Shown one piece after another: positions 7,173-33,002 of a stretch of DNA of 64,000 nt. The number at the start of each line of letters is the position of its first letter. The first letter of the stretch is position 1. A model generated the notes under the pieces. The model was not told where the DNA came from. It ran no database searches and saw only the letters and a list, made by a program, of their open reading frames with translations. The stretch covers positions 124,001 through 188,000 of the forward strand of contig NZ_JAUHLN010000002.1 in assembly GCF_030412265.1 (NCBI RefSeq), in the 5' to 3' direction. The DNA is from Fictibacillus terranigra. GTDB taxonomy: Bacteria; Bacillota; Bacilli; Bacillales; Fictibacillaceae. The position numbers were made by a program, and so were the translations under genes.

Positions 7173-7661
7173 CTATTGCATGGGCTCCATGAAGTAATAT
7201 ATCTGCCGCTTTTTATCAATGGTAGGCGCAACTCTATTTCCATTGACCGTGTCAATCCCATGAAGGTTCGATTTTACTCTTCCTAGATATACCGTATACT
7301 TTTGTTTGGTCAGTGATTCTACCTTGAAATGAACAGATGGTGAGGTGTTGTTTTTCTTGTTCTTTATCTGAATCTCATTGGAAGAACGATACCAAGTATA
7401 TTTTCCATTCTTTTTGCCAATATTGACGACACCTACAGCATCTCCATCGCTGACCTTCTTTTCGTAAAAGATAAAAACATCTCCTGCAATTTCAGTTCTT
7501 CCTATTATTTCATCTACCGTTATTCCTTCTTCTTTCGCTCCTTTATGGATGGCATCATTGGAAGTATCATGCCAAGTGAGATTCTCTTTCCCATTCGTGA
7601 ATAAAGAACACCCTGTAAGGAGTAGTATCCCTAAAGTAACCCATAACGTTTTTGTTTTCAT
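7173..7661 (-). CDS. Putative lipoprotein of unknown function
   Basis: A 162-aa protein starting with a lipoprotein signal: positively charged N terminus, hydrophobic stretch WVTLGILLL and lipobox LLTGC with Cys at about residue 18. The mature part is hydrophilic (contains a stretch of KNKKNN) and would sit outside the membrane. I recognise no domain. A ribosome binding site (GGGAGAAG) precedes the ATG. It stands alone; the next gene on this strand starts 220 bases away. No function is proposed. Confidence 0.6.
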   Translation of the reverse strand: MKTKTLWVTLGILLLTGCSLFTNGKENLTWHDTSNDAIHKGAKEEGITVDEIIGRTEIAGDVFIFYEKKVSDGDAVGVVNIGKKNGKYTWYRSSNEIQIKNKKNNTSPSVHFKVESLTKQKYTVYLGRVKSNLHGIDTVNGNRVAPTIDKKRQIYYFMEPMQ

Positions 7662-7883
7662 TCCATCTTCTCCCGTTCTTTGCTATAAAAACAAATTCGA
7701 GATGTGAGTGGAAAACACCTTGCTAATGATTTCTATTTAGTGGAAGAAAAAATACTGTAATCCCTGTTTTTAGGCAGTAACACCCAACGACACATTATTG
7801 GAGCCGTAATGTTCGATGCGTCTATGACGATTCCACAACCAGTTAGTTAAAGATTATAAATGCCTCTTTTTTATTGATGCGAA

Positions 7884-8540
7884 TTATTCCCCGTAGCTTT
7901 CAATCAGGTTGGCCATATGGGCATAAGCACCACCTGCCAACAGAGCAGCTGCAACTAAAATAGCTTCTGATAGCTCTTCTTTTGTTGATCCTGCTCGTTG
8001 GGCAGATTTTGTATGAACGTCAATGCAGTACGGGCATTCTGTGGTATGGGCTATTGAAACTGCTATTAATTCTTTTAACTTTGCATTTAATTTTCCTTCT
8101 TTGGTTGCTTCAGTGTTGAAACGGGAATATGCCCTAAAACCATTAGGGATTAATTGATTCAAATTGGCTAACTTTTTAAGATTGGATCGGCGATAGAGGG
8201 TATCATTGGCATCTTGATCAAGGGCATTTTGCATATGAGTGCTATGAGTAACTGCTCCTCCGGCTTCAAGTGCAGCTGTTACAAACACTGCTTCTACCAA
8301 TTCTTCGAGGGATGCACCCGATTTTTTAGCATTACGGGTATGCACATCAATACAATAAGGACACTCAGTTGCGTGCGCCACAGCGACAGCAATAATTTCT
8401 TTATCCTTTTTTGTAAGAACGCCTTCTTGCATTACGGTTCTACTAAAATTTTCGTACGCTTGCTGTTGGGCAGGAGCTAATTCGCCCAGCTTAGCAAGAT
8501 GACGTAAGTTTTCCCTTTGATATAAGTTATTTGCCATCAT
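7884..8540 (-). CDS. Carboxymuconolactone decarboxylase/AhpD-like protein with duplicated domain
   Basis: A 218-aa protein made of two tandem copies of the AhpD-like fold. Each copy carries the family motif ATECPYCIDVHT or TTECPYCIDVHT, in which the CPYC cysteines and nearby His form the redox/proton relay of AhpD, followed by LAGGA or EAGGA helices. Each half is also introduced by a similar YRRxNLxxLAxL segment, so the gene arose by internal duplication. Single-domain members are about 110-190 aa. The role is probably peroxide defence or a related thiol-disulfide reaction; the substrate is unknown. GAGAGGA lies just upstream of the start. Confidence 0.85.
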   Translation of the reverse strand: MMANNLYQRENLRHLAKLGELAPAQQQAYENFSRTVMQEGVLTKKDKEIIAVAVAHATECPYCIDVHTRNAKKSGASLEELVEAVFVTAALEAGGAVTHSTHMQNALDQDANDTLYRRSNLKKLANLNQLIPNGFRAYSRFNTEATKEGKLNAKLKELIAVSIAHTTECPYCIDVHTKSAQRAGSTKEELSEAILVAAALLAGGAYAHMANLIESYGE

Positions 8541-8923
8541 TCATATTCCTCTCTATAAAACTGATTTTTTTAAATTCAAAGTCCTTCCTTTATTACTTCC
8601 TCAGATTCACCTTGGCCTGTTCCATTTTTTATACTATCCATTTTGAATAAGAGTATTCAAAGCTTGTCAAGCCGTATTTTACAAATTAAAAATCAGCAGG
8701 GCATTTTCTTGGACACAGAACCGCCTGCTTTTTCCTGCCTGGTAAGCAGCTGATACCGGTTTACAAAACTTTGCGAACAACAAAGAAAACCCCAGGTGAA
8801 AAGTGCAATTATAGGTAAACCCTTACCACACCATTTAATATAAAAATAGGAAACATTTTAGAAATTATTGCATAAAAAATAGTTTAAATTGAGATGTTAT
8901 GTAAAAAAGGAGGTGAGTACATA
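8541..8923. other. Intergenic region upstream of the SASP gene
   Basis: This divergent spacer of about 380 bases should contain promoters of the AhpD-like gene (minus) and the SASP gene (plus). I could not find a convincing sigma-G promoter; an AT-rich block at 8830-8890 is the likely promoter area. Confidence 0.4.
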
Positions 8924-9145
8924 ATGGCAAATCGTAGTGGTGGTAATCGTAATCAAGTATTAGTACAAGGTGCACGACAAGCACTTGATCAAATGAAATA
9001 TGAAATCGCAACTGAATTTGGTGTGCAACTTGGAGCTGACACAGCTTCTCGTGCGAACGGTTCAGTAGGTGGTGAGATAACAAAACGTCTTGTTGCTCAA
9101 GCACAATCGCAACTTTCCGGAGGTTTTGGTGGAGCATCTCGTTAA
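8924..9145 (+). CDS. Small acid-soluble spore protein, alpha/beta type
   Basis: A 73-aa protein that coats and protects spore DNA. It shows the alpha/beta SASP signature: [22 protein letters not shown], with the EIATEFGV stretch that contains the germination-protease cleavage site, and the second conserved block [19 protein letters not shown]. The ATG at 8924 is chosen because AAAGGAGGTGA is 8-10 bases upstream; the longer frame from 8894 has no such site. Expression is expected in the forespore under sigma-G, from family knowledge. A terminator follows at 9200. Confidence 0.96.
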
Positions 9146-9199
9146 TTGTAGGTAATAATGTATAAGTTTTACTTCTCTCAAACAAAACATAAATGGATC

Positions 9200-9226
9200 A
9201 GGCTGCCTAAAAATAGGTAGCCTTTC
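9200..9226 (+). terminator. Terminator after the SASP gene
   Basis: AGGCTGCCT (9200-9208) pairs with AGGTAGCCT (9215-9223) with a single G-T pair and is followed by TTT. The T run is short. Confidence 0.6.
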
Positions 9227-10170
9227 CGTATTTCGATTCAAAACTAGATCACTTTTTTTAAAAGAGCTAAGGGATAACACAGAGGTGGTCTACAATGGCC
9301 AAGCAGACTGATTGTTATCCCAATAATCATTAACATCAACAAAAGGATAAAAAAATATCCATTTTTTGTGTTAAATAAATGTAAATTTACTACATAACAA
9401 TCGTTGGTTTGAACAAAAAATTTTAAAACTGGATTTATAAATACCGAAAAGCCTCGTCACAACTGGCATCGAGCGACCAAACAATTACTGTGGTTGGTAA
9501 GGCTCACGACAGTCGGGAATTTAGATGTACGACGATCAATTAGAATAACAACATTAAAAGACGAAGATAAAAGCAAAGCTCCCAATAGAGAAAGCTTTTT
9601 CAATGGGATCAACTAATTTTAAAATTATTTTCTGTTTCCCACAAATAATGGGCATGTGTGTCATCTACAAATGACCCGTCAAGCACAATCAAACAATTTG
9701 ATGGAACCAGTGTTTTGCATTGGCGGTGTTAACCGAGCTATCCAACACCAGACTGGTTATGCTTGTGACGATGTTGAATGTTCAACTTTCCCTTTAATCT
9801 GAATTTCCATTCTAATAAAGAAGGTTATTGATGATTGAAAGCGCTTCTTATAAAATTTAGGTAGACACAAATCTATAATAAAGGCGTATCCCCCAATATT
9901 CAAGAAGGGACTTTATCACCACATATCAAAAAAAATTATATTTTTACACAAGAATCTATTATATTGGCTTGTACTAAAGAATATACAAAGAAGAGAATAC
10001 CATCTTTAAGAGTTAATATCACAGTGGAATGTATGACAAAATCTGGTTGTAATAACGATTTGGATGGTATCAGAGGTACAAGAACATACAAAATCGGTAG
10101 TTAAACATAGTGGTACCAAAAAAAAACAGTAAAATGAAATTTATGGAATTAAGGAGAAAAGAGGGAAATC
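9227..10170. other. Long intergenic stretch, no supported gene
   Basis: About 940 bases without an ORF carrying a usable start. Fragments near 9660-9790 and 9885-10100 look like worn coding sequence broken by stops on both strands, but I recognise no family. This may be the remains of inserted or lost genes. Confidence 0.4.
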
Positions 10171-10305
10171 ATGAACATAGAAATTGTTTTAAGGGAACTG
10201 ATAAAGGACTTTGAGGAAAAACTTAAAAGGGAGTTACACCCAAAAGAAGTCGATTTCTTAAAAGACATTCTCTCCTATGAACGAGATGACGAAACATCCA
10301 GTTAA
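10171..10305 (+). CDS. Small ORF of unknown function (44 aa)
   Basis: ATG with GAGGGA 5 bases upstream opens a 44-aa acidic, helix-prone frame (MNIEIVLRELIKDFEEK...). Its stop overlaps the stop end of the convergent sda-like gene by three bases. I recognise no family. The good start signal and tight tail-to-tail fit argue for a real gene, but length alone gives weak support. Confidence 0.4.
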   Translation: MNIEIVLRELIKDFEEKLKRELHPKEVDFLKDILSYERDDETSS

Positions 10306-10445
10306 ATCTTTTGTAATTCCTTTTTTATATTTCTTTTTTTTAATTCTTTAGCGAGTAAGTCAATAAAATCCTGGGCTAACATTAGATTTTTTGCTTCAAT
10401 GTAAGCCTTCATTAGAGACTTGTTAGACATCTTGTCTAAAGTCAT
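10302..10445 (-). CDS. sda: Sda-like sporulation histidine kinase inhibitor
   Basis: A 47-aa protein on the minus strand. Its core MSNKSLMKAYIEAKNLML then AQDFIDLLAKELKKRNI aligns with the Bacillus Sda hairpin (LSDELLIESYFKATEMNL, then NRDFIELIENEIKRRSL, from memory). Sda binds the dimerisation domain of sporulation kinases KinA/KinB and blocks phosphorelay firing when DNA replication or integrity is disturbed. The ATG lies 10-12 bases after AAAGGA. I did not see clear DnaA boxes upstream, which control sda in B. subtilis. The gene is short enough to be missed by automatic callers. Alternative: an Sda paralog with another kinase partner. Confidence 0.8.
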   Translation of the reverse strand: MTLDKMSNKSLMKAYIEAKNLMLAQDFIDLLAKELKKRNIKKELQKI

Positions 10446-10803
10446 CTGTACCATTCCTTTCTAACCGATCAGACACTTTATGTACAATTATAATAACGTT
10501 TTTAACAAAAATTAACCCTTATTTTGTCCTATTGTTTCGACAATTTCTTTATTTTTGTTCATTTTGAACAATCACCGATTGATCGTTGTAGAAAAGCGGA
10601 TACACGACGTGGTGAAAAGCTTATGTGGGTGAGATTGCAAAAAATAGAGCACGAACAGAATGAGGAAAAATTTAACTACGTATGGTAAAAATAATGATAG
10701 TGTCCTTGTTTTCTCTCATTCAAAAGGTTATTTTTTGTTTCACGTTGTAAGAATAGTTCAATCATATTAAGATAAAGAGAGTGAGTGGAAGAGGAGGGAT
10801 GTT
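10446..10803. other. Intergenic between the sda-like gene and the next small gene
   Basis: AT-rich divergent spacer. It should hold the minus-strand sda promoter; ATTATA at 10485-10492 reads as TATAAT on that strand, but no matching -35 was found. Nothing else recognised. Confidence 0.35.
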
Positions 10804-11034
10804 ATGAACAAGTGTAACATGGATCACTCAAAAGATGATGTCAAACGTAAATACGAGGCACGGAAGGAAGAACTTCCAGAAGATATTTGTGGGTTGTTTG
10901 ATGATTTTTTAAACAGGAATAACTCACAACCCACCTTAAATGAGATGTTTCATCTTCTCAAAAAATATGATTTAGCGGATGAATTGGAAAGATTAGAACG
11001 AAATAGAAAAATGAGATCGTTACTTCTTAAATAG
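10804..11034 (+). CDS. Small hypothetical protein (76 aa)
   Basis: A charged, predicted all-helical 76-aa protein (KRKYEARKEELPEDICGLFD...LKKYDLADELERLERN). AGGAGGGATGTT places an excellent ribosome binding site before the ATG. I do not recognise a named domain. Its place among small sporulation-related genes suggests, but does not show, a sporulation or stationary-phase role. A perfect hairpin sits immediately after the stop. Confidence 0.7.
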   Translation: MNKCNMDHSKDDVKRKYEARKEELPEDICGLFDDFLNRNNSQPTLNEMFHLLKKYDLADELERLERNRKMRSLLLK

Positions 11035-11037
11035 GGA

Positions 11038-11059
11038 TGTAATAAGCCTTCTTATTACA
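11038..11059. other. Perfect hairpin directly after a stop codon
   Basis: TGTAATAAG (11038-11046), loop CCTT, CTTATTACA (11051-11059). It is a perfect 9-bp stem with no T run, so it is more likely an mRNA 3' stabiliser or a protein site than a full intrinsic terminator. Confidence 0.45.
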
Positions 11060-11914
11060 GGAGTGCTGACAATTCAATAGGCATTTTAGAACTTGTGTCG
11101 ATCTTTCGACATAAGTTCTTTTTGATGGGGAATTTTTATGATAGGAAGAATAGAAGAAACGGTCTAAATCGTTTTTCGGAATATGCCCCTTTAAATGACT
11201 ATAATTTCACGTACCTTAATTTTATCAAAAAAAAGATGAATTTTCTTTTTACTTTCTATACCCGCCCATTGTTATTAAGCGAAGGAACTGACTGCCTGCA
11301 AAAGAATGCCCTTGTGTGAGGTGAAAACGCTCACTGTGTTTCTTTTATTTTGTTTAATTCGCAATGTGAAAAGGGATGGCTGCTTGTTTGTTTTAGCTTC
11401 ATGGTCCATCGTTCAGCTTTACGGCGTTTTAGAAAAGGGACATTAACACCATTATACATTCCTGGATTTGTTTTAAATTTTAAAACAGCTAGTTCTGCAG
11501 CATCTTATCTTTCACCGAATTAGTAACATAAGATTCAACTCATTACCTAAGATTCCCTGAAAACAGGTTTGAAATAGGTATGAATGCCTGTTTCATATCT
11601 AGCTCTTAATTAAAAAACCAAAGGTCGGGAGGAATTGGACATTAACCAGAAATATTTGGTCATCTTAGATATAGTTGAATCCTCTCCAACAAATAAGAAA
11701 ATTCAACAAAACAAAGCTAGAAATTACATTGGAGTAAGGAGATGCTTAATTGCTTTTGCTTGCTGGTACAGTTACATCACAAGTTAGACGGGTATATGAA
11801 GTTAACCTCTTAGTCCTCCAAATTCGATTTATACACGGACTTAGGCGGCCATAAGGATGGACAAGAATGGGCTATGCGTTTATGTAAGCATTACTTTCCA
11901 GGAGGTGTTAAGGT
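11060..11914. other. Degenerate region with coding-like fragments
   Basis: No intact gene is supported. Two short frames look coding and then stop: about 11630-11780 (ELDINQKYLVILDIVES...) and about 11825-11935 (DLYTDLGGHKDGQEWAMR...). Neither has a start signal. They precede the two broken small-gene copies at 11915-12382 and may be part of the same decayed block, perhaps of phage or toxin-locus origin. Confidence 0.35.
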
Positions 11915-12161
11915 ATGGCAAAGTCAGTAGACGTAATAGTATCAATACCTAAAGGTTACACTGTAAGAAAGGTGAGTGATAAAATGCTGCGTCATGATAT
12001 TGAAAAATTTGAAGATAACTTTCCAGAGGTGTTTACACACTTCCAAAGGATCCTAAGAAGGCGCGCCTAAAGGTAAAAGCTTTGGCAGAGTATTGCATGA
12101 AAAAAGGGAAGAGTCCGAAGAGCTTACAGAAGAAGAACGACAGCAGTTTCTGGAGCATTAA
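11915..12161 (+). pseudogene. Small-protein family, copy 1 (two frameshifts)
   Basis: A good ribosome binding site (CCAGGAGGTG) precedes an ATG that opens MAKSVDVIVSIPKGYTV... Reading the three frames in turn gives one continuous protein: HDIEKFEDNFPEVF, then LPKDPKKARLKVKALAEYC, then ESEELTEEERQQFLEH. The frame shifts once near 12035 and again near 12110, in an A-rich run. The restored protein would be about 82 aa and closely parallels the next copy. No function is known to me. Confidence 0.5.
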
Positions 12162-12162
12162 T

Positions 12163-12382
12163 ATGGACCAACGAAAGAAAGATCTCCTAAAAGAGATCGA
12201 GACTTTTGAAGCTGTTTTTCCAGATGGAGTTTATGCGGTTCCTCCTAAACAAGGTCAGCCAAGAATTAAGGTGCGAAATGTTTAAATACTGCAGGCAGAA
12301 CGGTAAGGAATCTGAAGAGCTAACTGAGAAAGGGAACAATTCTATGATTATGAGAAGCAGCAGGGAAACCTGCCGCTTTTAA
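12163..12382 (+). pseudogene. Small-protein family, copy 2 (frameshifted)
   Basis: Starts 2 bases after copy 1 with MDQRKKDLLKEIETFEAVFPDGVY. It is open to 12285 and continues in another frame with KYCRQNGKESEELTEKGNNS. The blocks FE-x-FP, xKYC-x4-GK and ESEELTE are shared with copy 1, so this is a tandem duplicate. The single break near 12275 suggests decay or a sequencing slip. Confidence 0.5.
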
Positions 12383-12715
12383 TACTTCAAAAAAACTTAG
12401 GTATTGGCGTTTGATCCAAAAACTTGGAAACTTATTTACCTAAGGTTTTGTTAATAAATAAGCAGCTCCTTTTGTAAAATAGGGCTGCTTATTGCTATGT
12501 AGTATGTTGTTAATTTATTGGTGCGGAGCGTTCATGACCCCTCTGTTATAAATTCTTCTGCGTTTTACATTTCTTAATGTATGGTTATTTTTTCTTCTTC
12601 AAATCCCAGGGGTAAATAGCTGAAGATTGGCACTCCCAGTCTTAGAAAACATGGTGATGCCATCCCGGCTCCAATAACAAACAATACAATACAATTTTCT
12701 ACTTTATATTGAACA
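12383..12715. other. Intergenic with a weak terminator-like hairpin
   Basis: AAGCAGC-TCCT (12460-12470) pairs with AGGGCTGCTT (12481-12490) after a 10-base loop. It could end transcription of the decayed small genes. Nothing else recognised. Confidence 0.4.
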
Positions 12716-12747
12716 ATGAGTAAAAGGCAACGTATAAGCAATACTAT
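12716..12747 (+). promoter_or_regulatory. Candidate sigma-G (forespore) promoter
   Basis: TGAGTA (12717-12722) and ATACTA (12741-12746) lie 18 bases apart and 34 bases before a small gene. This resembles the sigma-G pattern TGAATA-N17/18-CATACTA. It is a pattern match only. Confidence 0.4.
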
Positions 12748-12779
12748 GAAGGAAGTTTTTGAATAAAGGAGGGAATGTA

Positions 12780-12950
12780 ATGACAAGTCGCAATGGCAGC
12801 AAAGGAAGCCAAAATCAAGGTTCACCACAAGCACAAAACAATCTAGAATTTAGCAGTGAGTTTGTGAGTGGGGATGATAATAAAGGAAAAGAATATCGTT
12901 CTAAAAAGGGTAGTAAATCAAAGAGTGATCCAAAGGAAAGCGGAGCATAA
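12780..12950 (+). CDS. Small hydrophilic protein, possibly a gamma-type or minor spore protein
   Basis: A 56-aa, Gly/Ser/Lys/Gln-rich protein with no hydrophobic core. ATG at 12780 follows AAAGGAGGGAATGT, the strongest kind of Bacillus ribosome binding site. The run NNLEFSSEF is reminiscent of the FGTEFASETN repeat of gamma-type SASPs, and a sigma-G-like promoter lies upstream. Together with the spore-gene neighbourhood this suggests a minor small acid-soluble spore protein. No firm homology can be shown by eye. It ends directly at a strong terminator. Confidence 0.6.
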   Translation: MTSRNGSKGSQNQGSPQAQNNLEFSSEFVSGDDNKGKEYRSKKGSKSKSDPKESGA

Positions 12951-12983
12951 AAAATCGTGAGGTAAACGCCTCACGATTTTTAA
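12950..12983 (+). terminator. Strong Rho-independent terminator
   Basis: AAAAATCGTGAGG (12950-12962), loop TAAACG, CCTCACGATTTTT (12969-12981). It is a perfect 13-bp stem starting at the stop codon of the small spore-protein candidate. Confidence 0.9.
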
Positions 12984-13512
12984 CATCATCGTCTTTGCGA
13001 TTGGCGGGTGCGCAGCAGATGAAACACCTGCAGAATTCATGAGTATTCAGCGTGATTCTAAAAAGAGTGATGAAGTTCGCTATAAAAGGGGATTAAGAAA
13101 AAAAGCCCAAGTTTGCCTGCTGGAATGTAAAGCTGAAGATCCAGCCTTTTCTGGTGGTGCTGGAGGTAAGCCAATACGAGGCGGAATAATTTAACTGATT
13201 TCGCAGTTTATTGTCATAAGTTTGTGACTTATGCAAAAAGGCCAATGTGGTGTGAAATCTGCATACAGCTTTGAAAAACGCCCGTTAGTAACGCGTTTTT
13301 TAATCATACACACAAACTAAAATTGAAGGTTATTGTGACAATAGCATTCAGGCATCCAAATCAGGTGGCCTGTTTATTTTTTTGTATAAAAAGGTTTGAT
13401 TACAAAGGAGAATGGGAATATTTTTATAGTTAATTTAAAAACTCTTCAAAAATAAAGGAAATTTAAAATAGGAAAAGAGATAATTTTTTTACCACTGGAA
13501 GGAGAACAGCAA
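12984..13512. other. Intergenic with a coding-like remnant and a weak terminator
   Basis: A frame from about 12985 to 13194 looks coding (GCAADETPAEF...GGAGGKPIRGGII) and includes an ATG at 13039, but it has no ribosome binding site and opens just after a terminator, so it is probably a gene remnant. A partly paired hairpin at 13350-13373 followed by TTTATTTTTTT could be its terminator. The rsbR promoter must lie in 13375-13490. Confidence 0.4.
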
Positions 13513-23214: not shown

Positions 23215-24006
23215 ATGCAAGAGGGAAAGTTTTATAGCGTTAGAATGAGAGCTGCAAAAAATGGATCTCATGAACAGGGTGGAAAGCATATTTCTGGTGG
23301 GGAAAAACTTTCAACTTTAAGCCATATGAAACATGCTGTGAATGCCTTATTGGAAAAGGGCTTAACTCATTCAAGGGGTACACCAGATTTTATGCAGATT
23401 CAGTTTGACTCTCTTGACGAGCCTATAAAACTAATTAAGCCTTTACAAATTGAGACAAATGAAGTGGAATCAGTTGAAATAGGACAAGCATTGTCTTGGA
23501 ATCTGTTAGAAAAGGTTGGTATTTCTAGACAAATCATTGAAAAAGCGTATACATATATGACTCAATATTCAGGAATCAGAGGCGCTATATTGATTGACAT
23601 ACATTTAGGCGAACGAATTGATTATAAGAACGAAAAGGGTGTGCGTGTTTCCAGAATGGACTGGATGAACACTAATTTTGAAAAATGGGCTGACTACTAC
23701 AAGGTTCCTAAAAATTCCAGAGTTAAAGAGGCGCTTGTACTTGCAACAAAGGTGTGTGAGCATCCGGCAACTGTCGCAGAATTATGCTGGTCAGATGATC
23801 CTGAATACATAACAGGTTATGTTGCAAGTAAAAAGCTAGGCTATCAACGTATTTCTAAGCTGAAAGAATACGGAGATGAACGAGGCTGTCGAATCTTCTT
23901 TGTTGATAGCTCAAAAGACGAAGATCTAAATTCATATATACAATATTTGGAAAAACAGCCTGTTATCATCCAATGGGGGGAAGAGAATGACTCAAGAATG
24001 GATTGA
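23215..24006 (+). CDS. bioW: 6-carboxyhexanoate-CoA ligase (pimeloyl-CoA synthetase)
   Basis: A 263-aa enzyme that activates pimelate with ATP and CoA to give pimeloyl-CoA, the first step of the BioW route to biotin. Features include N-terminal [25 protein letters not shown], the nucleotide-binding [15 protein letters not shown] and VRVSRMDW, and the C-terminal CRIFFVDSS. Length is normal for Bacillus BioW (about 255-265 aa). ATG 23215 follows GGGGGGAGAA. The gene overlaps the start of the broken bioA by 20 bases. It is intact, but its pathway partners are not. Confidence 0.93.
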
Positions 24007-24636
24007 AAAAAGTAAAAAGTACCTTTGGCTACCTTTTACACAAATGAAAGATTATGATGAAAACTCTTTGCCTGTGGACATGAAAGTGTGCAACCAGATT
24101 TGATGGCAGCTGGGAAGGGGATTTCAGGAGGCTATTTACCAGTAGCTGCAACATTTACAACTGAAGAAATCTACATGACATTCTATGATGACTACGAAAA
24201 GTTAAAAACCTTGTTCCACTGCCATTCTTATACGGGAAATCAGCTCGGATGTGCGGTTGAGATCGAAAATTTACGTTTGTTTGAATCTGAAAAAATCGTA
24301 GAACAGGTAGCCCAAAAAGCAGAGGACCTAGATTTACTCCTTAATGAGCTACAATCACTCCCTCACGTGGGAGATATCAGGCAGCTTGGTTTTATGTGTG
24401 GAGTAGAGCTTGTTCACTCAAAGGAAACAAAAGTGGCCTATCCTTCTAAAAAACGAGTAGGCTATCAGGTTTCCTTAAAGATGAGAGAGCTCGGTATGCT
24501 AACGAGACCATTGGGCGATGTCATTGTCTTTATGCCTTCACTTGCCAGTACAAGGGAAGAACTAAAAGCAATGGTAACGATCATGAAAGAGGCAATTATT
24601 GAGGAAACAAATGAGGTAACAAGTGTTGAAGTTTGA
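23987..24636 (+). pseudogene. bioA: bioA (DAPA aminotransferase) with large internal deletion
   Basis: The ATG at 23987 opens the BioA N terminus [21 protein letters not shown]. At about 24070 the reading frame changes and the sequence jumps to the C-terminal third ([21 protein letters not shown], containing the PLP lysine motif AGKG, then [14 protein letters not shown]). Normal BioA is about 450 aa; roughly 220 residues, including most of the substrate and PLP-binding core, are gone. The product cannot be active. The C-terminal frame alone (24088-24636) would give 182 aa. Confidence 0.9.
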
Positions 24637-25798
24637 TGGATGGTTAAACCGACGATTAGACAAGACGAAAGAGGTTGGCTTGTATCGAAAGTTACGAACA
24701 ATGAATACAGCTCCTCGACCTGTAATGTCTATAGATGGTCAGAGACAAATCGTCTTTTCATCAAATAATTATTTAGGGCTGGCGAATGATAAACGATTGG
24801 TCAACGCAGCAGGAACGATACTACATGATTTTGGAGTAGGAAGTAGTGGCTCAAGGTTAACTACAGGGAATTCTGAATGGCATGAAAAGCTCGAAGAACG
24901 AATCGCAAGCTTTAAGCAAACGGAAGCAGCCCTTCTGCTTTCAAGTGGTTATTTAGCTAATGTCGGTGTACTGTCATCTTTACCTGAAAAAGGGGACGTA
25001 ATATTAAGCGATCAATTAAATCATGCGAGTATTATTGATGGCTGCCATCTATCAAAAGCTGACACAGTCATTTATAACCATGTTGATATGGATGATCTTG
25101 AAGAAAAGCTGAAAGAAACAGAATCTTATCAGCGACGTTTTATTGTAACAGATGGAGTATTTAGTATGGATGGTACGATTGCGCCGCTTGATATGATTAT
25201 GTCACTTGCTAAACATTATCATGCTTTCGTTATCGTTGACGATGCACATGCAACCGGTGTTTTAGGAGATGACGGCAGGGGCACTAGTGAATATTTTGCT
25301 GTTTTTCCTGATGTAGTGATTGGGACTCTAAGCAAAGCCATTGGAACGGAAGGTGGTTTTGTAGCTGGTTCGAAGGTGTTAATTGATTTTCTGCTAAACC
25401 ATGCTAGAACTTTTATTTTTCAAACAGCTATCCCACCATCCATCTGTGCTGCTTCGTATGCAGCCTTGGAGATTATTGAACATAGTAAAGAAAAGCGCAA
25501 ACTGTTGGTTTCAAAAGTAAAACAGATAAAAACTAGTCTAGAAGAAATGGGTTATACCGTGAAGGGGGACTATACACCAATTATTCCAGTGATTATTGGG
25601 GATACCGAAATGGCTGTAATATTTTCGAACAGACTACAGGAAAAAGGAATATACGCACCTGCTATTCGTCCACCAACAGTACCAATAGGAGAAAGTCGCA
25701 TTCGGTTGACTGTCACCTCTGACCATAGTTTTAAAGAAGTAGATTACTTGTTAGAGTCATTTAATTTAATTGGAAAAGAGTTGAACTTGATTAATTGA
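24623..25798 (+). CDS. bioF: 8-amino-7-oxononanoate synthase
   Basis: A 391-aa PLP enzyme that joins pimeloyl-CoA (or pimeloyl-ACP) and L-alanine. Visible features are [22 protein letters not shown], the PLP-phosphate and ring contacts [10 protein letters not shown] and the lysine motif [16 protein letters not shown]. It starts at GTG 24623 (or TTG 24626), overlapping the end of bioA by 14 bases; GAGGT lies upstream. The frame is complete and normal in length. With bioA and bioD broken it has no complete pathway here. Confidence 0.92.
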
Positions 25799-25932
25799 AG
25801 GGTTTATTTGTAACAGGAACTGATACTGGAGTAGGGAAAACAATTATATCTTGTGGACTTGCAGCAGTATTAAACGAGAATAAAGATCGATGTTGGAGTA
25901 TTTAATCCATTGTTAAGTGGCATTTGTAACCG
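25795..25932 (+). pseudogene. bioD: bioD (dethiobiotin synthetase) fragment
   Basis: A TTG overlapping the bioF stop opens [18 protein letters not shown], the P-loop N terminus of BioD. The frame breaks near 25893; the next BioD motif (DVGVFNPLLSG) continues in another frame and homology ends near 25932. Only about 45 of roughly 230 residues remain. A transposase fragment on the opposite strand begins where bioD stops, so an insertion probably truncated the operon. No bioB follows. Confidence 0.88.
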
Positions 25933-26322: not shown

Positions 26323-27669
26323 TCAGTGGTTGTGCATATGGAATTTTTTAATTTTCTTCACAAGGGTTGAATGGTCTACTCCTAAATAGGCCGCAGCTTT
26401 CCTAATAGAGGGCTTCCTCTGTAGTGCATCTTCAATCAATCTTTTTTCAAAGAGTTTGACCCGCTGTTTCAAAGGAAGAATGGATTCAGGATGATTCTGA
26501 ATCCTGAAGTGAGGCGGGAGGTCAACTGGTTCAATCGTAAGGGAAGGAACCGAAACAATCATGCTTTCCACTAAATTTCTTAATTCTCTAACATTCCCTG
26601 GCCAATGATAATTTTCCAATATGTGCAGCGTATCTTGTGAGATATGCTTCTCCACATTATATAATTTACAGAAATGAGCAAAAAAGTGCTGCAGCAGGAC
26701 ATGGATGTCTTCTGGACGCTCACGCAAAGGCGGAACGTTCAATTCTACAACCTGCAAACGATAAAAAAGGTCTTCCCGGAATTTACCTACTCTAACCAAT
26801 TCCTTTAAATTTTGATTGGTAGCCGAGATAATTCGAATGTCCAATTGCTTCGTTTTGGTGCCTCCAACTCGCTGGACTTGCTTCTCTTGGAGTACACGGA
26901 GCAATTTGACCTGCAGCGGTAGCGGCAGTTCACCTATTTCATCAAGAAGAACGGTCCCTTTATCTGCCAGTTCCAACAACCCGATTTTTCCTTCCCGGCG
27001 TGCTCCAGTGAACGCGCCCTCTACATGGCCAAACAACTCTGATTCTAACAATGGTTCAGGAATGGCCCCGCAGTTCACTTTAATAAAAGGCTTATCTTTC
27101 CGGTCACTTAATTGATGAAGTAAATCGGCGATGACTTCTTTTCCTGATCCGGAAGGGCCTAACAATAAAATACTTGTAGGGAAGGATGCCACCTGCTCTA
27201 CTTTTTGAATAACTTCTTTCATTCGGACACTTTGGAAGATCACTTGTTCATCCGAGCCATCTGTCATAAACGTGTAACGGTTTTGGCTCATTTCTGAAAA
27301 ACTTTTCGCCTTTGTTAACTCTTTAGTCATCCTATTTAATTGAGTAATATCGCGGACACTCGTCACCACCATCTGAATCTCACCAGATTCATTGAATACG
27401 GGATTTCCGGTGACGATGACATCTTTTTGTTGTTGCCCGATTTTCTGCAAAATGGAAATCCTCTTTTTGGCATCCAATACGAGTAGAGAGACAGACTGAT
27501 CAAAATATCCTTTCTCCATTAATTCACTCATGTGCTTGCCAACTAGCTCCTCTCGTTGGAACCCAGTCATTTCCTCATAAGCCGAATTAACAAGCAATGT
27601 CTTGCCTTCTTTATTAACCACATAGATACCGTCGGTGGAAAATTCTAGTATCTTCTCTAATTTATCCAT
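26323..27669 (-). CDS. PAS-domain sigma-54-dependent transcriptional activator
   Basis: A 448-aa one-component bacterial enhancer-binding protein. Order: PAS domain (about 1-112, ending VVTSVRDITQLNRM), linker, AAA+ domain (about 142-375) with Walker A GPSGSGKE (171-178), GAFTGA loop (218-223), Walker B GTVLLDEIGELP and R-finger region FREDLFYRL, then a Fis-type HTH (RKPSIRKAAAYLGVDHSTLVKKI). It is divergent from the aldehyde dehydrogenase operon. Three 16-bp dyads lie in the 220-base gap, two of them 29-60 bases from its own start, so it likely activates the operon and may control itself. The PAS domain probably senses a small ligand such as a lactone, hydroxy acid or semialdehyde; that is inference. 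Confidence 0.93.
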   Translation of the reverse strand: MDKLEKILEFSTDGIYVVNKEGKTLLVNSAYEEMTGFQREELVGKHMSELMEKGYFDQSVSLLVLDAKKRISILQKIGQQQKDVIVTGNPVFNESGEIQMVVTSVRDITQLNRMTKELTKAKSFSEMSQNRYTFMTDGSDEQVIFQSVRMKEVIQKVEQVASFPTSILLLGPSGSGKEVIADLLHQLSDRKDKPFIKVNCGAIPEPLLESELFGHVEGAFTGARREGKIGLLELADKGTVLLDEIGELPLPLQVKLLRVLQEKQVQRVGGTKTKQLDIRIISATNQNLKELVRVGKFREDLFYRLQVVELNVPPLRERPEDIHVLLQHFFAHFCKLYNVEKHISQDTLHILENYHWPGNVRELRNLVESMIVSVPSLTIEPVDLPPHFRIQNHPESILPLKQRVKLFEKRLIEDALQRKPSIRKAAAYLGVDHSTLVKKIKKFHMHNH

Positions 27670-27697
27670 GATAAAAACCCTTCCTTGTACAAAATAC

Positions 27698-27789
27698 GGT
27701 GAAAATCGTCACCGATGGTGAAAATCGTCACCGTCTATATTATATAACCATTCGTTCATAATACGGTTTTTGTGGTGAATTTTATCACC
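27698..27789. promoter_or_regulatory. Three enhancer dyads (GGTGA-N6-TCACC)
   Basis: Copies: GGTGAAAATCGTCACC at 27698-27713 and again, identical, at 27717-27732; GGTGAATTTTATCACC at 27774-27789. Each is a perfect 5-bp inverted repeat with 6-base spacer. The first two are 19 bp apart centre to centre (nearly two helical turns). They lie about 80-165 bp upstream of the predicted sigma-54 start site, the usual place for activator binding. Confidence 0.85.
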
Positions 27790-27841
27790 ACATGATAATC
27801 AACAAAGCCGTGCCATCGTAATCAACACAGGCTTTTTTATT

Positions 27842-27859
27842 TTGGCATGGATCTTGCAA
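27842..27859 (+). promoter_or_regulatory. Sigma-54 (-24/-12) promoter of the dehydrogenase-lactonase operon
   Basis: TTGGCATGGATCTTGCAA: GG at 27844-27845 and GC at 27856-27857, exactly 10 bases apart, one mismatch to YTGGCACG-N4-TTGCW. Transcription would start near 27868, 25 bases before the ATG. Confidence 0.9.
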
Positions 27860-27892
27860 GCATATGAAGAAGTGAAAGGAGGGAAGTCCATT

Positions 27893-29320
27893 ATGAATAT
27901 CAAAGGTTTATTTATCAATGGAAAACCAGTAATCAAGCAAAGAACCTACGATCTCCGGTCTCCCTATCACGGAGGAACCATCGCCACAATTAGTATGGCG
28001 GATCAAGAAGATGTAAATCGGGCAATCGACGGGGCTCAGGCGGCTTTTGAAGTAATGAAAGAGATGCATGCCTATCAACGCTCTGAGATCTTGTTAAGGG
28101 TTGTGCGAATCTTTGAGGAAAGGAAGGAGGAGTTAGCTCGTGTGTTGGTACAGGAAGCCGGCAAACCTATTCGCAACGCACGGGGAGAAATCGATCGAAC
28201 CATTGCCACCTACCAGCTTGCTGCAGAGGAGGCAAAAAGGATTTATGGGGAGACGATTCCGATGGATGCGGCCCCAGGCGGTGAAAATCGAATCGGGTTT
28301 ACATGGAGAGAACCATTAGGCGTTGTGGTCGCCATTAGCCCTTTTAACTTTCCGTTTAATTTGGTCGCCCACAAATTGGGTCCGGCCATCGCTGCAGGAA
28401 ACACGGTTGTTTTAAAACCTGCTGAACAAACCCCATTAAGTGCATATCTTACCGCTGAAATTTTTCAGCAGGCTGGACTTCCGGATGGAGCTGTTCAGGT
28501 AGTTTCAGGTAGCGGCAGAGAACTCAGTGATGCTTTAATCCTGGATCCAAGAGTCAAAAAGATAACTTTCACAGGCAGTTCTCAAGTAGGTAAAGCAATT
28601 AAAGCAAAAGCGGGATTAAGAAAAGTAACATTGGAACTTGGTTCAAATTCCGGGTTAATTGTCGAACCGGATGTACCTTTGGAAAAAGTGATTCAGAGAT
28701 GTGTGGAAGGGGCATTTTCCTTTGCTGGCCAAGTTTGTATTTCACTGCAGCGCATTTATGTCCACGAATCGATTTATGAGGATTTTAGTAAGCGTTTTAT
28801 AGAACGCACAAAACAATTAAAAGTCGGTGACCCGTCGGAAGAAACTACGGATATAAGTGCCATGATCACCCCCCGGGAGTTGGAGCGGATCGAATCGTGG
28901 GTAACTGAGGCCGTAAAGCAGGGTGCCAAAATTGGCATCGGTGGGGCAAGGAATGGAACTATTTTTCCACCAACCGTTTTGCTGAACGTCACACGAGATA
29001 TGGCAGTTTCATGTCAGGAAACGTTTGCTCCCGTGGTGTCAATCGTGCCCTATAAAGAACAGGATGAAGCGATTAACATGGTGAACGATTCGGTGTATGG
29101 ACTCAATGTGGGGATTTATACCCAAAACATTATGAACGCCTTGCATGCCGCACGTAAGTTGGAGTCGGGCGGCGTGATAATCAATGATATCCCAACCTTC
29201 AGGCTCGATCATATGCCTTATGGCGGTGTGAAAGAAAGCGGTTACGGCCGTGAAGGAATTAAATACGCGGTTGAAGAAATGACCGAATTAAAATTCGTTA
29301 CAATGAAAACGACTTTTTAA
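27893..29320 (+). CDS. NAD(P)-dependent aldehyde dehydrogenase
   Basis: A 475-aa enzyme of the ALDH superfamily. Landmarks: SPFNFPFNLVAHKLGPAIA with AAGNTVVLKPAEQTP, GSSQVGK in the Rossmann fold, general base Glu in TLELGSNSG, and nucleophile Cys in GAFSFAGQVCISLQRI. The GSNSG in place of GGNAP is typical of lactaldehyde/sulfolactaldehyde-like and other broad ALDHs, so succinic semialdehyde is only one possible substrate. The ATG at 27893 is chosen since AAAGGAGGG lies 10 bases upstream and the promoter at 27842-27859 overlaps the longer frame. The lactonase gene follows after 13 bases. Expected role: last step, aldehyde to acid. Confidence 0.92.
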   Translation: MNIKGLFINGKPVIKQRTYDLRSPYHGGTIATISMADQEDVNRAIDGAQAAFEVMKEMHAYQRSEILLRVVRIFEERKEELARVLVQEAGKPIRNARGEIDRTIATYQLAAEEAKRIYGETIPMDAAPGGENRIGFTWREPLGVVVAISPFNFPFNLVAHKLGPAIAAGNTVVLKPAEQTPLSAYLTAEIFQQAGLPDGAVQVVSGSGRELSDALILDPRVKKITFTGSSQVGKAIKAKAGLRKVTLELGSNSGLIVEPDVPLEKVIQRCVEGAFSFAGQVCISLQRIYVHESIYEDFSKRFIERTKQLKVGDPSEETTDISAMITPRELERIESWVTEAVKQGAKIGIGGARNGTIFPPTVLLNVTRDMAVSCQETFAPVVSIVPYKEQDEAINMVNDSVYGLNVGIYTQNIMNALHAARKLESGGVIINDIPTFRLDHMPYGGVKESGYGREGIKYAVEEMTELKFVTMKTTF

Positions 29321-29333
29321 GGGGGAGTAATTC

Positions 29334-30182
29334 ATGACAAACATTATAAAGCCTAATCCTAAACTTTATGTACTGGATAACGGTCGGATGAAGATGGATA
29401 AAAATTGGATGATCGCCATGCATAACCCGGCAACCATTGACAAACCAAATGTGCAAACCGAATTTGTTGAGTTCCCCGTTTATACCGTTCTCATTGATCA
29501 TCCAGAGGGTAAAATCCTTTTTGATACCGCTTGCAACCCCAATTCAATGGGTCCTGATGGCCGGTGGGGACAAGCAACTCAAGCCATGTTTCCGATTTCC
29601 ATGGGGGAAGAATGCTACCTTCATAACCGTTTGGAACAGCTGAATGTACGGCCGGAAGATATAAAGTATGTAGTCGCTTCCCACCTTCATTTAGACCATG
29701 CGGGTTGTTTGGAACTATTTACGAATGCAACGATTATCGTTCATGAAGACGAGTTGAACGGTACACTCCAATCCTACGCACGCAATCAAAAGGAAGGGGC
29801 ATATATTTGGGTTGATATTGATGCTTGGATCAAAAATAATCTTCAGTGGCGAACAGTAAAACGGGGTGATGACAATCTCCAATTGGCAGAAGGCATTAAG
29901 ATTTTAAATTTTGGAAGTGGCCATGCCTGGGGCATGATTGGACTTCACATCGATATGCCGGAATTGGGCGGAATCATCCTTGCTTCAGATGCGGTCTATA
30001 CGTCGGAAAGCTTTGGTCCACCGATCAAGCCGCCCGGCATCATCTACGATTCACTGGGCTATGCAAACGCGGTTGAAAAAATACGCAGAATAGCTCAGGA
30101 AACAAACTCTCAGGTCTGGTTTGGGCATGATCCTAATCAATTTAAAGAATTTCGCAAATCCACTGAAGGCTATTATGAGTAA
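29334..30182 (+). CDS. Metallo-beta-lactamase-fold lactonase (AHL/gamma-butyrolactone lactonase family)
   Basis: A 282-aa protein of the AiiA/AttM-like branch. The dinuclear metal site is visible: HLHLDH (117-122), His in FGSGHAWG, Asp in LASDAVYT and His in VWFGHD. No signal peptide. Members hydrolyse N-acyl-homoserine lactones or gamma-butyrolactone. Its position between an aldehyde dehydrogenase and an Fe-ADH, 13 bases from each, matches the Agrobacterium attKLM (blcABC) set, in which the lactonase opens gamma-butyrolactone to gamma-hydroxybutyrate. GGGGGAG precedes the ATG. Which lactone is the true substrate cannot be told from sequence. Confidence 0.88.
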   Translation: MTNIIKPNPKLYVLDNGRMKMDKNWMIAMHNPATIDKPNVQTEFVEFPVYTVLIDHPEGKILFDTACNPNSMGPDGRWGQATQAMFPISMGEECYLHNRLEQLNVRPEDIKYVVASHLHLDHAGCLELFTNATIIVHEDELNGTLQSYARNQKEGAYIWVDIDAWIKNNLQWRTVKRGDDNLQLAEGIKILNFGSGHAWGMIGLHIDMPELGGIILASDAVYTSESFGPPIKPPGIIYDSLGYANAVEKIRRIAQETNSQVWFGHDPNQFKEFRKSTEGYYE

Positions 30183-30195
30183 GGGGGAATCTTAA

Positions 30196-31383
30196 ATGAG
30201 TTTTGATAAGTTAGTTTTTGCCCCATTAAGTTATACCGGATGGGGTGCTTTGGAACAACTATTGCCCGAAGTCGAAAAATACGCGCCTAAGAAAATACTG
30301 GTGGTAACGGATCCCACGCTTGAAAAAATAGGGTTAGTCGAGCGGGTGACTACTCCCCTAAAAAAGGGGGGGTATCATGTTACGATATATACGGATGTGG
30401 TACCTGAACCACCTATAGAAACAGGTGAGAAGCTAGTTTCCTTTGCTCGAACAGGCCAATTTGAAATGGTGGTTGGCCTCGGTGGAGGTAGTGCATTGGA
30501 TTTAGCGAAATTAGCAGCCGTTCTGGCGGAGCATGAAGGATCAGTAGCCGACTATTTAAACCTCACCGGAACAAAGAAAGTGGAAAAGAAAGGATTGCCA
30601 AAAATCCTTATCCCGACAACTTCTGGTACGGGTTCGGAAGTGACAAATATATCCGTCTTGTCCTTAAAATCAACAAAAGACGTCGTTACCCACGATTATC
30701 TTTTAGCAGATGCAGCCATTTTGGATCCTGAATTAACGGTTTCTGTTCCAGCGAAAGTCACAGCAGCCACAGGAATTGATGCATTAACCCATGCGGTGGA
30801 AGCCTATATTTCGGTTAATGCAAGCCCAGTGACCGATGGTTTAGCCCTTCAAGCCATTCGTCTCATTGGCCGTTCATTACGAAAGGCCGTCCATAATGGC
30901 AATGATAAAAAGGCCCGGATCGATATGAGTAATGGGAGCTTTATCGCAGGACTAGCGTTCTTTAATGCAGGGGTGGCGGGAGTTCATGCGTTAGCCTATC
31001 CATTAGGCGGTCAATTCCATATTTCCCATGGTGAATCAAACGCCGTATTGCTGCCTTATGTCATGGGTTATATCCGAAAAAGCTGCACGGCAAAAATGGC
31101 GGATATTTTAAACGCGCTAGGGGGCAACTCCAGCTATTTATCTGAGGAAGACGCTTCTTACAAGTGCGTTGAGGAACTGGAGAGGCTTGTAAAAGATGTT
31201 GGAATTCCGTCAACTTTAGCAGAGTTTGATATACCTGAATCCGCTTTGGAACGCCTCACTCAAGACGGAGTCCAGCAAAGGCGGATACTGGCCAGAAGCC
31301 CTTACCCATTATTGGAGGATGACATTAGGAACATTTATCAATCTGCTTTTAACGGTGTTGTCACTGAGCCAACGAGGCGGTAA
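30196..31383 (+). CDS. Iron-containing alcohol dehydrogenase (hydroxy-acid dehydrogenase-like)
   Basis: A 395-aa group III Fe-ADH. Visible: GLGGGSALDLAKLAAVLA, PTTSGTGSEVTNISVL, TGIDALTHAVEAYIS and the metal histidines in HALAYPLGGQFHISHGESNAV. In the attKLM-type pathway the Fe-ADH oxidises gamma-hydroxybutyrate to succinic semialdehyde, which fits its place as third gene of this operon. It is only moderately similar by eye to the Fe-ADH at 2169-3317. AAGGGGGAA lies before the ATG. A strong terminator follows. Confidence 0.92.
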   Translation: MSFDKLVFAPLSYTGWGALEQLLPEVEKYAPKKILVVTDPTLEKIGLVERVTTPLKKGGYHVTIYTDVVPEPPIETGEKLVSFARTGQFEMVVGLGGGSALDLAKLAAVLAEHEGSVADYLNLTGTKKVEKKGLPKILIPTTSGTGSEVTNISVLSLKSTKDVVTHDYLLADAAILDPELTVSVPAKVTAATGIDALTHAVEAYISVNASPVTDGLALQAIRLIGRSLRKAVHNGNDKKARIDMSNGSFIAGLAFFNAGVAGVHALAYPLGGQFHISHGESNAVLLPYVMGYIRKSCTAKMADILNALGGNSSYLSEEDASYKCVEELERLVKDVGIPSTLAEFDIPESALERLTQDGVQQRRILARSPYPLLEDDIRNIYQSAFNGVVTEPTRR

Positions 31384-31420
31384 ATGAATTCTATTCCACA
31401 TCAAAAGCCACTGTATGCAT

Positions 31421-31459
31421 AAAAAACTCCTTGAGGACACTCTCCTCAAGGAGTTTTTT
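31421..31459 (+). terminator. Rho-independent terminator of the lactonase operon
   Basis: AAAAAACTCCTTGAGGA (31421-31437), 5-base loop, TCCTCAAGGAGTTTTTT (31443-31459). Perfect 17-bp stem. Confidence 0.95.
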
Positions 31460-31983
31460 ATTGCTATTCCAAATCTCAGGGCGGGATCTCCTAATTCATC
31501 ATCCCTTTTTCCAATTATGTCAAATGGTGAATGATCGAAGGGGGATTAAAAATCCATGTATAACGTAATTGTAAATCGCAATGCATAATTGATACTGGAG
31601 ATTGCTCTAGCACGAACTAAAGGGTTCATTTAAATGCCCTGAATAAAAATTTGCTGCATTAAAAGGACTTGAATCTTTTTTTAATAATTCAATCTGAGAA
31701 TAATAACTTCTATTAATAATATGCGTGTGGGATCTGAAACATTTTCGAGATCAGATTTTTGTTTCAATTTTTATGTTGTCTCAATATCATCAGTAAACTT
31801 AACATTTGAAACAAATTTCATTCGCTCTCGCATAGCTTCCTAGAATATATATTATGTTAACTAAGAAAAAACGTAAACGTACCATAACTTCAATCCCTCA
31901 CGTTCCGATAATATCTTATATTAGGAACTTCCTCCCTCTAAGTTTACGATAAAAACGTGTATCGACCTGATAACTGTTGGAAC
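31460..31983. other. Intergenic upstream of a tyrosine recombinase
   Basis: No gene. An imperfect dyad with outer arms GTTCC (31902-31906) and GGAAC (31924-31928) lies about 130 bases before the recombinase start. The remainder is AT-rich and unremarkable. Confidence 0.4.
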
Positions 31984-32035
31984 CGTTCCATAATTCTCAG
32001 GGTCGTCCCATAATTTATGGGTACGTCCTTATAAT
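31984..32035. repeat. Three phased direct repeats with an embedded palindrome before the recombinase
   Basis: CGTTCCATAAT (31984), CGTCCCATAAT (32004) and CGTCCTTATAAT (32024) recur every 20 bases. The middle copy is part of a perfect palindrome CCCATAATTTATGGG (32007-32021). Placement 25-75 bases before the recombinase ATG suggests binding sites for the recombinase itself. Confidence 0.65.
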
Positions 32036-32057
32036 AAAATTTTACGGAGGTCGTTAC

Positions 32058-33002
32058 ATGGATTTAAAACAAGCAACTGATGATTTTTTAATGTATTTAC
32101 AGGTAGAAAAAAATTACTCCAAAAATACGCTTAAAAGCTATGCCTTTGATTTAAAGTTATATGCTTCATTTTTGACCAAACACGATCGCTCGCTGAATTT
32201 AGATGATTTAACAGCAGCTACAACCCGTAGATTCATTCAGGAGCAAGTGTTGGAATACCAAATCAAGCCCAGAACATTACAACGCCGTATATCCGCCTTA
32301 AAGTCGTTTTGCGTCTATTGTATAAAAGAAAATTATCTAAAGCACAATTTTATGCTGGGCGTTCAGGCTCCTAAATCAGATAAAAAATTACCAGTATATA
32401 TGACACTCCAAGAACTACTAAAATTATTTACGTATTTAGAAAACTCTACGGATCGGTTTGCTACACGCAATCATGTAATGTTTAAATTACTTGCGACAAC
32501 TGGGATGAGACGACAGGAATTAGTGGATTTAACATGGGAGCAAATCGATATGTATAACCAAACGATTCGTATCTTTGGGAAAGGAAAAAAGGAGCGTCTC
32601 CTCCCTCTTCATCCCATTCTTATCCCTTTACTAAAGGAATATATTGAACAGCAAGAACACTATCAGCTGTATCCAACTGAACCCGTATTTTTAAATAAAA
32701 ATAAAATGAAGATGGATCCTAGAGGTTTACACAAAGTTTTTAAAGATATCTTACCTAAAGCAGGATTGCCTCCTAAACGGTACTCTTTGCACCATTTACG
32801 CCATACGTTTGCAACTTTGCTTCTTCAAAATAAAAATAATAAAGTGGATATACGAATCTTACAAGAATTATTAGGTCATGAAAGTTTATCCACCACAGCA
32901 ATGTATACCCATGTGAATTTAGAGCAAAAAAAAGCATGCAATTCATTCATTTATGCAGTAATGAAAAAACGCTTAGGAATCTTTCCTAAGCGTTTAATTT
33001 AA
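32058..33002 (+). CDS. Tyrosine recombinase/integrase (XerC/D-like, single gene)
   Basis: A 314-aa recombinase. The N-terminal SAM-like core-binding domain spans about 1-90 (FLMYLQVEKNYSKNTLKSYAFD) and the catalytic domain about 105-300. Catalytic residues are seen in TGMRRQELVDL (Arg), the HHLRHTFAT box (His-x2-Arg), LGHESLSTTAMYTH (His and nucleophile Tyr). ATG 32058 is chosen for GGAGGTCG upstream; the longer frame begins inside the repeat array. No excisionase or phage genes adjoin. The organisation (repeats plus palindrome upstream) resembles resolvase-type TnpI systems. Confidence 0.9.
   Translation: MDLKQATDDFLMYLQVEKNYSKNTLKSYAFDLKLYASFLTKHDRSLNLDDLTAATTRRFIQEQVLEYQIKPRTLQRRISALKSFCVYCIKENYLKHNFMLGVQAPKSDKKLPVYMTLQELLKLFTYLENSTDRFATRNHVMFKLLATTGMRRQELVDLTWEQIDMYNQTIRIFGKGKKERLLPLHPILIPLLKEYIEQQEHYQLYPTEPVFLNKNKMKMDPRGLHKVFKDILPKAGLPPKRYSLHHLRHTFATLLLQNKNNKVDIRILQELLGHESLSTTAMYTHVNLEQKKACNSFIYAVMKKRLGIFPKRLI
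32967..32998 (+). terminator. Terminator inside the recombinase 3' end
   Basis: AAACGCTTAGGAA (32967-32979), loop TCT, TTCCTAAGCGTTT (32983-32995). The perfect stem encodes the last residues (KKRLGIFPKRLI) and ends just before the stop codon. Confidence 0.8.

Follow-up and report, generated by a model that had tools for sequence, protein, structure and literature searches.

The window analysed here, a 64,000-nucleotide stretch of the Fictibacillus terranigra genome (contig NZ_JAUHLN010000002.1, positions 124,001 to 188,000), carries genes for an aldehyde dehydrogenase (ALDH), a lactonase and an iron-containing alcohol dehydrogenase (Fe-ADH) divergent from that of a sigma-54 activator, and our analysis indicates that they probably form an operon that is induced for the breakdown of small lactones and switched by the activator through sigma-54. 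A sigma-54-type, activator-controlled lactone operon had been proposed in an earlier note on this DNA, and the proposal gains support from two sides: relatives that possess the activator keep the combination of dyads and -24/-12 promoter, which is absent from the 48 loci that lack it, and the lactonase recurrently pairs with unrelated alcohol dehydrogenases (ADHs) and ALDHs. The genes and motifs are conserved, the sites are linked to the regulator, and the regulon is genuine, its conservation reaching further than one window could show.

Between the activator and the ALDH lie three 16-bp dyads of consensus GGTGA-N6-TCACC (Table 1), as the earlier note had described this gap, and the -24/-12 promoter that it placed before the first gene, TGGCATGGATCTTGCA at 27843, proved to be the sole mismatch-free match in the 64 kb. 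With at most one mismatch allowed, the dyad pattern gives nine matches in the window where shuffled sequence would lead one to expect 0.78, six of the nine being the three sites each counted on both strands, and the -24/-12 pattern gives four against 0.91 expected. Every component of a sigma-54-dependent promoter with its enhancer-binding protein was found: the -24/-12 element, an AAA+ domain with GAFTGA (a Walker A motif is also present) together with a Fis-type helix-turn-helix, conserved upstream sites, and a sigma-54 gene, of which the genome has one (213.5 bits, cut-off 22.8). Judging by their conservation, we regard the dyads as putative upstream activator sites.

This conservation was assessed over 82 loci, comprising 80 kept from the 108 lactonase relatives confirmed in genome contigs, the window and one Peribacillus plasmid (L083), by scanning 500 bases upstream of the first gene, with starts defined by tblastn. 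The activator was counted as present at 50% identity or more and nearby, each element was allowed at most one mismatch, and joint occurrence meant a spacing of 50-110 bp. The 34 loci with the activator show the -24/-12 element in 33, a dyad in 33 and both at this spacing in 31; the 48 without it show 0, 1 and 0, respectively, and among 3400 shuffles of the activator-locus regions the counts are 75, 33 and 0. The loci are related and so do not represent independent events, and the contrast with the activator-less relatives is the main point of these statistics. Three activator loci were missed by the joint count: at L018 both sites lie upstream of an ALDH remnant that had counted as the first gene, and at L028 and L045 both elements are there at a different spacing. 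In an alignment of nine upstream regions, dyad 3, which is nearly invariant, and the promoter form the longest conserved blocks. Between these two blocks lies a 17-bp direct repeat (82%; window 27791-27830), overlapped by a possible hairpin with a T-run that is weak (z -2.6; equal stability in 5 of 200 shuffles) and was not seen in three relatives.

Within its own genome the dyad occurs at nine places (three in a backward-read control), three of which are at the operon. Within 300 bp of the other six there is no -24/-12 element that keeps GG and GC and has no more than one mismatch, the nearest carrying two, and five of the six fall inside an open frame of at least 80 codons; on these grounds we rejected the idea that the activator controls a larger regulon here. 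Because nowhere else in the genome do dyads precede a -24/-12 element with one mismatch or none, the activator appears to serve this operon alone. Since its own start is near dyads 1 and 2, it may also regulate itself. Bacillales sigma-54 activators are often in charge of catabolic operons.

Searching from the activator instead (299 genomes of the order, E <= 1e-120) returned 20 matching genomes, of which the 19 other than the window's own were compared. Among activators at least 54% identical (13 loci), all 13 have a mismatch-free -24/-12 element and 10 have an adjacent lactonase; a dyad with no more than one mismatch accompanies nine of the 10. Five of these loci, L115-L119, appear to repeat L008, L009, L003, L006 and L004 of the lactonase-first set, and therefore only eight of the 13 are new. 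At 44-47% identity none of six activators has an adjacent lactonase. The paralogous activators of L125, L126 and L128 are accompanied by GGTTA-type dyads 57-70 bp from their promoters; the site thus changes with the regulator.

In the mechanism that we propose, the activator would respond to a lactone or its product, probably through its PAS domain, bind the GGTGA-N6-TCACC dyads and drive transcription from the -24/-12 promoter by RNA polymerase carrying sigma-54 (SigL). The lactonase would then open the lactone ring and expose a primary alcohol, which the Fe-ADH would oxidise to give an aldehyde acid; the ALDH would convert this to a diacid for central metabolism. As to substrate, the simplest route, from gamma-butyrolactone through gamma-hydroxybutyrate and succinic semialdehyde to succinate, is our leading guess and a tentative one, and delta- or epsilon-lactones would fit as well.

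The variety of the lactonase's partners supports a sequence from lactone to hydroxy acid, aldehyde acid and diacid, since an Fe-ADH or an unrelated Zn-type ADH, and ALDHs of two subfamilies or none, would appear to have been recruited independently, which agrees with ring opening that yields a primary alcohol, oxidised first to an aldehyde and then to a diacid. Fe-ADH is present at 30 of the 34 activator loci; of the others, L024 and L030 end too early to tell, and L049 and L068 carry a Zn-type ADH, which also follows the lactonase under the same activator family at L121 and L124 (by family scans for L049 and L121, by cluster for L068 and by reading for L124). Next after the Zn-type ADH, L049 and L068 have an ALDH resembling succinic semialdehyde dehydrogenase (SSADH), that of L049 scoring 636 bits, just under the cut-off of 646. 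Fe-ADH and an SSADH-family ALDH also occur together at activator-less loci of Chryseomicrobium (L055, L061), Tetzosporium (L056) and a Sporosarcina (L017, truncated where its contig ends), the family scans covering L055 and L017; at L055 the ALDH beside the lactonase-Fe-ADH pair reaches 680 bits against the same cut-off. In those genomes the presence of SSADH-type ALDHs speaks for a C4 route. Seven further activator-less loci of Lysinibacillus and Sporosarcina (L051-L053, L058, L069, L077, L079) combine a 49-54% identical ALDH with a LacI-like regulator, the family scan having covered that of L051 alone.

The ALDH of the window itself scores best in NCBIfam as a lactaldehyde dehydrogenase, below the cut-off (552 against 650), and in a tree of 23 ALDHs the window type is split with 100/100 support from AttK, which has a long branch, and seven SSADH-type enzymes (cluster c5). 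The GSNSG motif recorded in the earlier note is present (ELGSNS at residue 248). Two arginines, R102 and R437, are conserved in the subfamily rows aligned and presumably bind the carboxylate; by eye, both line up with arginines in ALDH21 of moss, whose sequence is the closest among solved structures. Moss ALDH21 is an NADP+-dependent SSADH according to a review whose accessible text does not mention these arginines (PMC7823795). The ALDH subfamily would be compatible with more than one carbon number, and a better SSADH lies elsewhere in the genome.

Several observations weigh against a lactone-catabolic operon of this kind. L124 has activator, promoter and lactonase and yet no dyad within one mismatch, and L120, L125 and L126 have close activators with the lactonase missing. 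The window ALDH fails the SSADH model TIGR01780 (394 bits against a cut-off of 646, AttK scoring 736), so that the SSADH assignment considered for it is not supported, and another ALDH of the same genome lies above the cut-off (662 bits), with one more at 645.7. The Fe-ADH passes no NCBIfam cut-off, its best score, also below cut-off, being lactaldehyde reductase; AttL likewise passes none. An ALDH match is found at only 26 of the 34 activator loci, one of them a remnant, and L005, L016, L021, L023, L028 and L032 have Fe-ADH without ALDH; an SSADH above cut-off exists elsewhere in only four of the seven genomes whose locus lacks a whole ALDH. Finally, adjacent Fe-ADH is missing from 28 of the 48 activator-less loci, many of them Paenibacillus with a lone lactonase, which does not fit a pathway there.

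Some of these points can be read as signs that the core is an alcohol/aldehyde module for a diol, lactaldehyde or a directly supplied hydroxy acid, to which the lactonase is a later accessory. We consider this unlikely, even though L125 and L126 have a paralogous activator with ALDH, Fe-ADH and then a 4HBT-type thioesterase gene, without lactonase, and the top NCBIfam scores, both under their cut-offs, name lactaldehyde enzymes. The 34 GGTGA-dyad loci were found via the lactonase, but in the activator-first search it also stands beside 10 of the 13 close activators, and it is the ALDH that is often missing; the model scores of AttL are similarly undecided, yet attKLM is a known lactone route (PMC5924552). 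Two lactonase-free or paralogous loci have features of their own. L120 (7900-11795) consists of an activator, a truncated ALDH, a 478-residue membrane-like protein without a Pfam match at E <= 1e-5 or an NCBIfam match at E <= 1e-20, and Fe-ADH. At L128 (turned, 7556-13314) a paralogous activator with GGTTA dyads is followed by thiolase-, 3-hydroxyacyl-coenzyme A (CoA) dehydrogenase- and enoyl-CoA hydratase-like genes (by eye) and further by Fe-ADH (50%) and two genes resembling those of a thioesterase and a CoA ligase; a related pathway, acting on hydroxy acids of greater chain length, may be encoded there.

The lactonase scores 559.1 bits against the AhlS cut-off of 475 (NF047976) and 137.4 against the AttM/BlcC cut-off of 390 (NF045700); in the window's family the AhlS cut-off is passed in six of 34 genomes, all six within its own genus (seven genomes). 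Its nearest solved structure is GcL (6n9q), and Ti-plasmid AiiB is about 41% identical. Because GcL and P. megaterium AiiB degrade N-acyl-homoserine lactones (AHLs; PMC11423328, PMC12501872), an AHL side activity of the window lactonase is likely. A dedicated quorum-quenching role, in which the lactonase was selected to destroy AHL signals and the dehydrogenases merely handle by-products, would agree with the AhlS-family score, with these activities, with the lone lactonase of many Paenibacillus loci and with the view of the GcL authors, who, in the text accessible, call quorum quenching perhaps the likelier native role given lower micromolar KM values (PMC11423328). We nevertheless judge it improbable, given the recurrent linkage with ADHs and ALDHs of different families and a dedicated sigma-54 activator, the presence of activator, sites and Fe-ADH at GcL's own locus, and the finding of no AHL-receptor-type gene in the operon by Pfam scan. 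Removal of inhibitory lactones or reactive aldehydes without carbon gain would account for the lactonase-only and ALDH-less versions and for GcL's activity on gamma-, delta- and epsilon-lactones as well as AHLs (PMC11423328), but two oxidations after hydrolysis look catabolic, and we regard such detoxification as very unlikely.

The GcL locus itself is among those compared: at L023 of Parageobacillus caldoxylosilyticus NBRC 107762, the strain named as the source of GcL (PMC12258673), the lactonase is identical to GcL over 282 residues. Like the window, this locus has a divergent activator, dyads, a -24/-12 promoter and a downstream Fe-ADH; unlike it, no ALDH was found before the lactonase. Its arrangement favours a role in lactone catabolism, quenching being incidental to it, and we found no description of the locus in the accessible passages of papers on GcL or its genus. 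For P. megaterium aiiB, a sigma-54-interacting regulator upstream and an Fe-ADH downstream of the AhlS-like lactonase have been reported (PMC12501872, 2025), which is prior art for the gene neighbourhood; the portion of that account available names no ALDH alongside and no promoter, dyads or catabolic pathway. The same work describes weak AHL degradation in Group 3 although AiiB is active in E. coli, for which its authors suspect low expression, and mentions in a figure legend an incomplete sigma-54 regulator, the strains not being stated in the text seen. Dyads, promoter or a catabolic reading for the AhlS/GcL lactonase family were not described in the literature that our search reached, subscription papers being mostly outside its range.

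Could the signals themselves be the food? The activator may conceivably sense homoserine lactones, through the PAS domain, the operon then being a Gram-positive AHL catabolic route in which N-acyl-homoserine, formed by the lactonase, would be oxidised at its primary alcohol by the ADH and ALDH to N-acyl-aspartate semialdehyde and on to N-acyl-aspartate; we hold this to be a long shot which, if true, would make Bacillales quorum quenching a sigma-54-switched feeding response to neighbours' signals. In nine loci of the Planococcus group, L039 and L063 among them, the lactonase (in some cases together with Fe-ADH) lies behind an aspartate kinase gene (scanned in L039), with a hom-thrC-thrB-like cluster (by eye) on the opposite strand, an arrangement reflecting either homoserine chemistry or chance neighbourhood.

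Two known systems invite comparison with the proposed lactone operon. The earlier note likened it to attKLM/blcABC of Agrobacterium, which degrades gamma-butyrolactone through gamma-hydroxybutyrate to succinic semialdehyde (PMC5924552), and the likeness stands as to enzyme classes, since both place ALDH, lactonase and Fe-ADH in a single operon, and as to the ADH, the window Fe-ADH being the best match of AttL in its genome (41%). It does not extend to kinship: the window lactonase, although AttM's only match in the genome (31%), fails the AttM model (137 against 390 bits), the ALDH falls outside the clade of AttK and the SSADHs, and orthology was rejected accordingly. In addition, attKLM has the order ALDH-ADH-lactonase and an IclR-type repressor (BlcR), whereas the window operon has the order ALDH-lactonase-Fe-ADH and a sigma-54 activator. 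The comparison holds as analogy only, the window operon appearing to work like attKLM from outside that family. In the qsd operon of Rhodococcus erythropolis a lactonase likewise belongs to a gamma-lactone catabolic operon and also quenches AHLs (PMC6476934); unlike the window, it pairs QsdA with QsdC under a TetR-type repressor, QsdR, and its main text, as accessible, nowhere uses the term dehydrogenase.

Research and engineering treat GcL-type lactonases as quorum quenchers, and the true purpose of many lactonases has been called unclear (PMC11423328, in the part accessible). Enzymes known mainly for silencing signals may instead serve their owners in feeding on lactones or clearing them away, and with a conserved sigma-54 regulon that includes GcL's own locus, finding the inducer of one promoter would be a direct test of what the lactonase is for. 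In biocontrol such an inducer would be a handle to switch quenching on, and a defective activator is a candidate explanation for P. megaterium strains with an active aiiB but weak AHL degradation.

The layout of the operon agrees with the earlier note, which had described a divergent PAS-AAA+-Fis activator (here on the minus strand, with Pfam domains above their cut-offs) and three enzyme genes 13 bases apart ending in a terminator. Both intergenic gaps are 13 nt, ribosome-site-like sequences accompany the plus-strand genes, and spacing and the strong terminator together suggest co-transcription. For the ALDH we prefer the ATG at 27893, preceded by AAAGGAGG, to the mechanical TTG at 27842, because the latter would overlap the promoter. 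The note's attribution of this DNA to a Bacillus does not hold in the strict sense, all four proteins being 95-98% identical to those of Fictibacillus enclensis.

Table 1. Features of the operon and its control region, in window coordinates
Feature	Position	Strand	Basis
PAS-AAA+(GAFTGA)-Fis sigma-54 activator, 448 aa, divergent	26323..27669	-	Pfam PF00158, PF00989, PF02954 above cut-offs
Putative upstream activator site, dyad 1, GGTGAAAATCGTCACC	27698..27713		pattern scan; similar sites in relatives
Putative upstream activator site, dyad 2, GGTGAAAATCGTCACC	27717..27732		19 bp from dyad 1; alignment with relatives
Putative upstream activator site, dyad 3, GGTGAATTTTATCACC	27774..27789		69 bp before -24 element; pattern scan and alignment
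-24/-12 promoter, TGGCATGGATCTTGCA	27843..27858	+	mismatch-free; kept across activator loci
ALDH, 475 aa, lactaldehyde dehydrogenase/ALDH21-like subfamily	27893..29320	+	Pfam/NCBIfam, PDB match, tree
AhlS/GcL-family metallo-beta-lactamase-fold lactonase, 282 aa	29334..30182	+	NF047976; best PDB match GcL 6n9q; HLHLDH motif
Iron-containing (type III) alcohol dehydrogenase (Fe-ADH), 395 aa	30196..31383	+	PF00465/PF25137; PDB matches
Intrinsic terminator hairpin with T-run	31417..31464	+	-29.6 kcal/mol, z -8.2, equal stability in 0 of 200 shuffles

Related genes also occur away from the operon. A second Fe-ADH gene lies in the window at 2244-3296 (31% to AttL), and beyond the window the genome has Fe-ADH and ALDH side by side at C9:194031-196588. 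In Fictibacillus loci of a second type, L022 (4648-6913) and L025, a lactonase-Fe-ADH pair without sigma-54 sites is divergent from a 3-hydroxybutyrate dehydrogenase (in L022 NF009093, 404 over 258) and a GntP-type permease. Just downstream of the operon is a tyrosine recombinase of XerC/D type (window 31977-33002; 242 bits, below the cut-off of 335). On the other side, at 23215-25900, lies a biotin cluster in decay, with bioW and bioF over their cut-offs, bioA reduced to its last ~160 profile positions (24088-24636), and a bioD-like start at ~25800 that breaks off (by eye).

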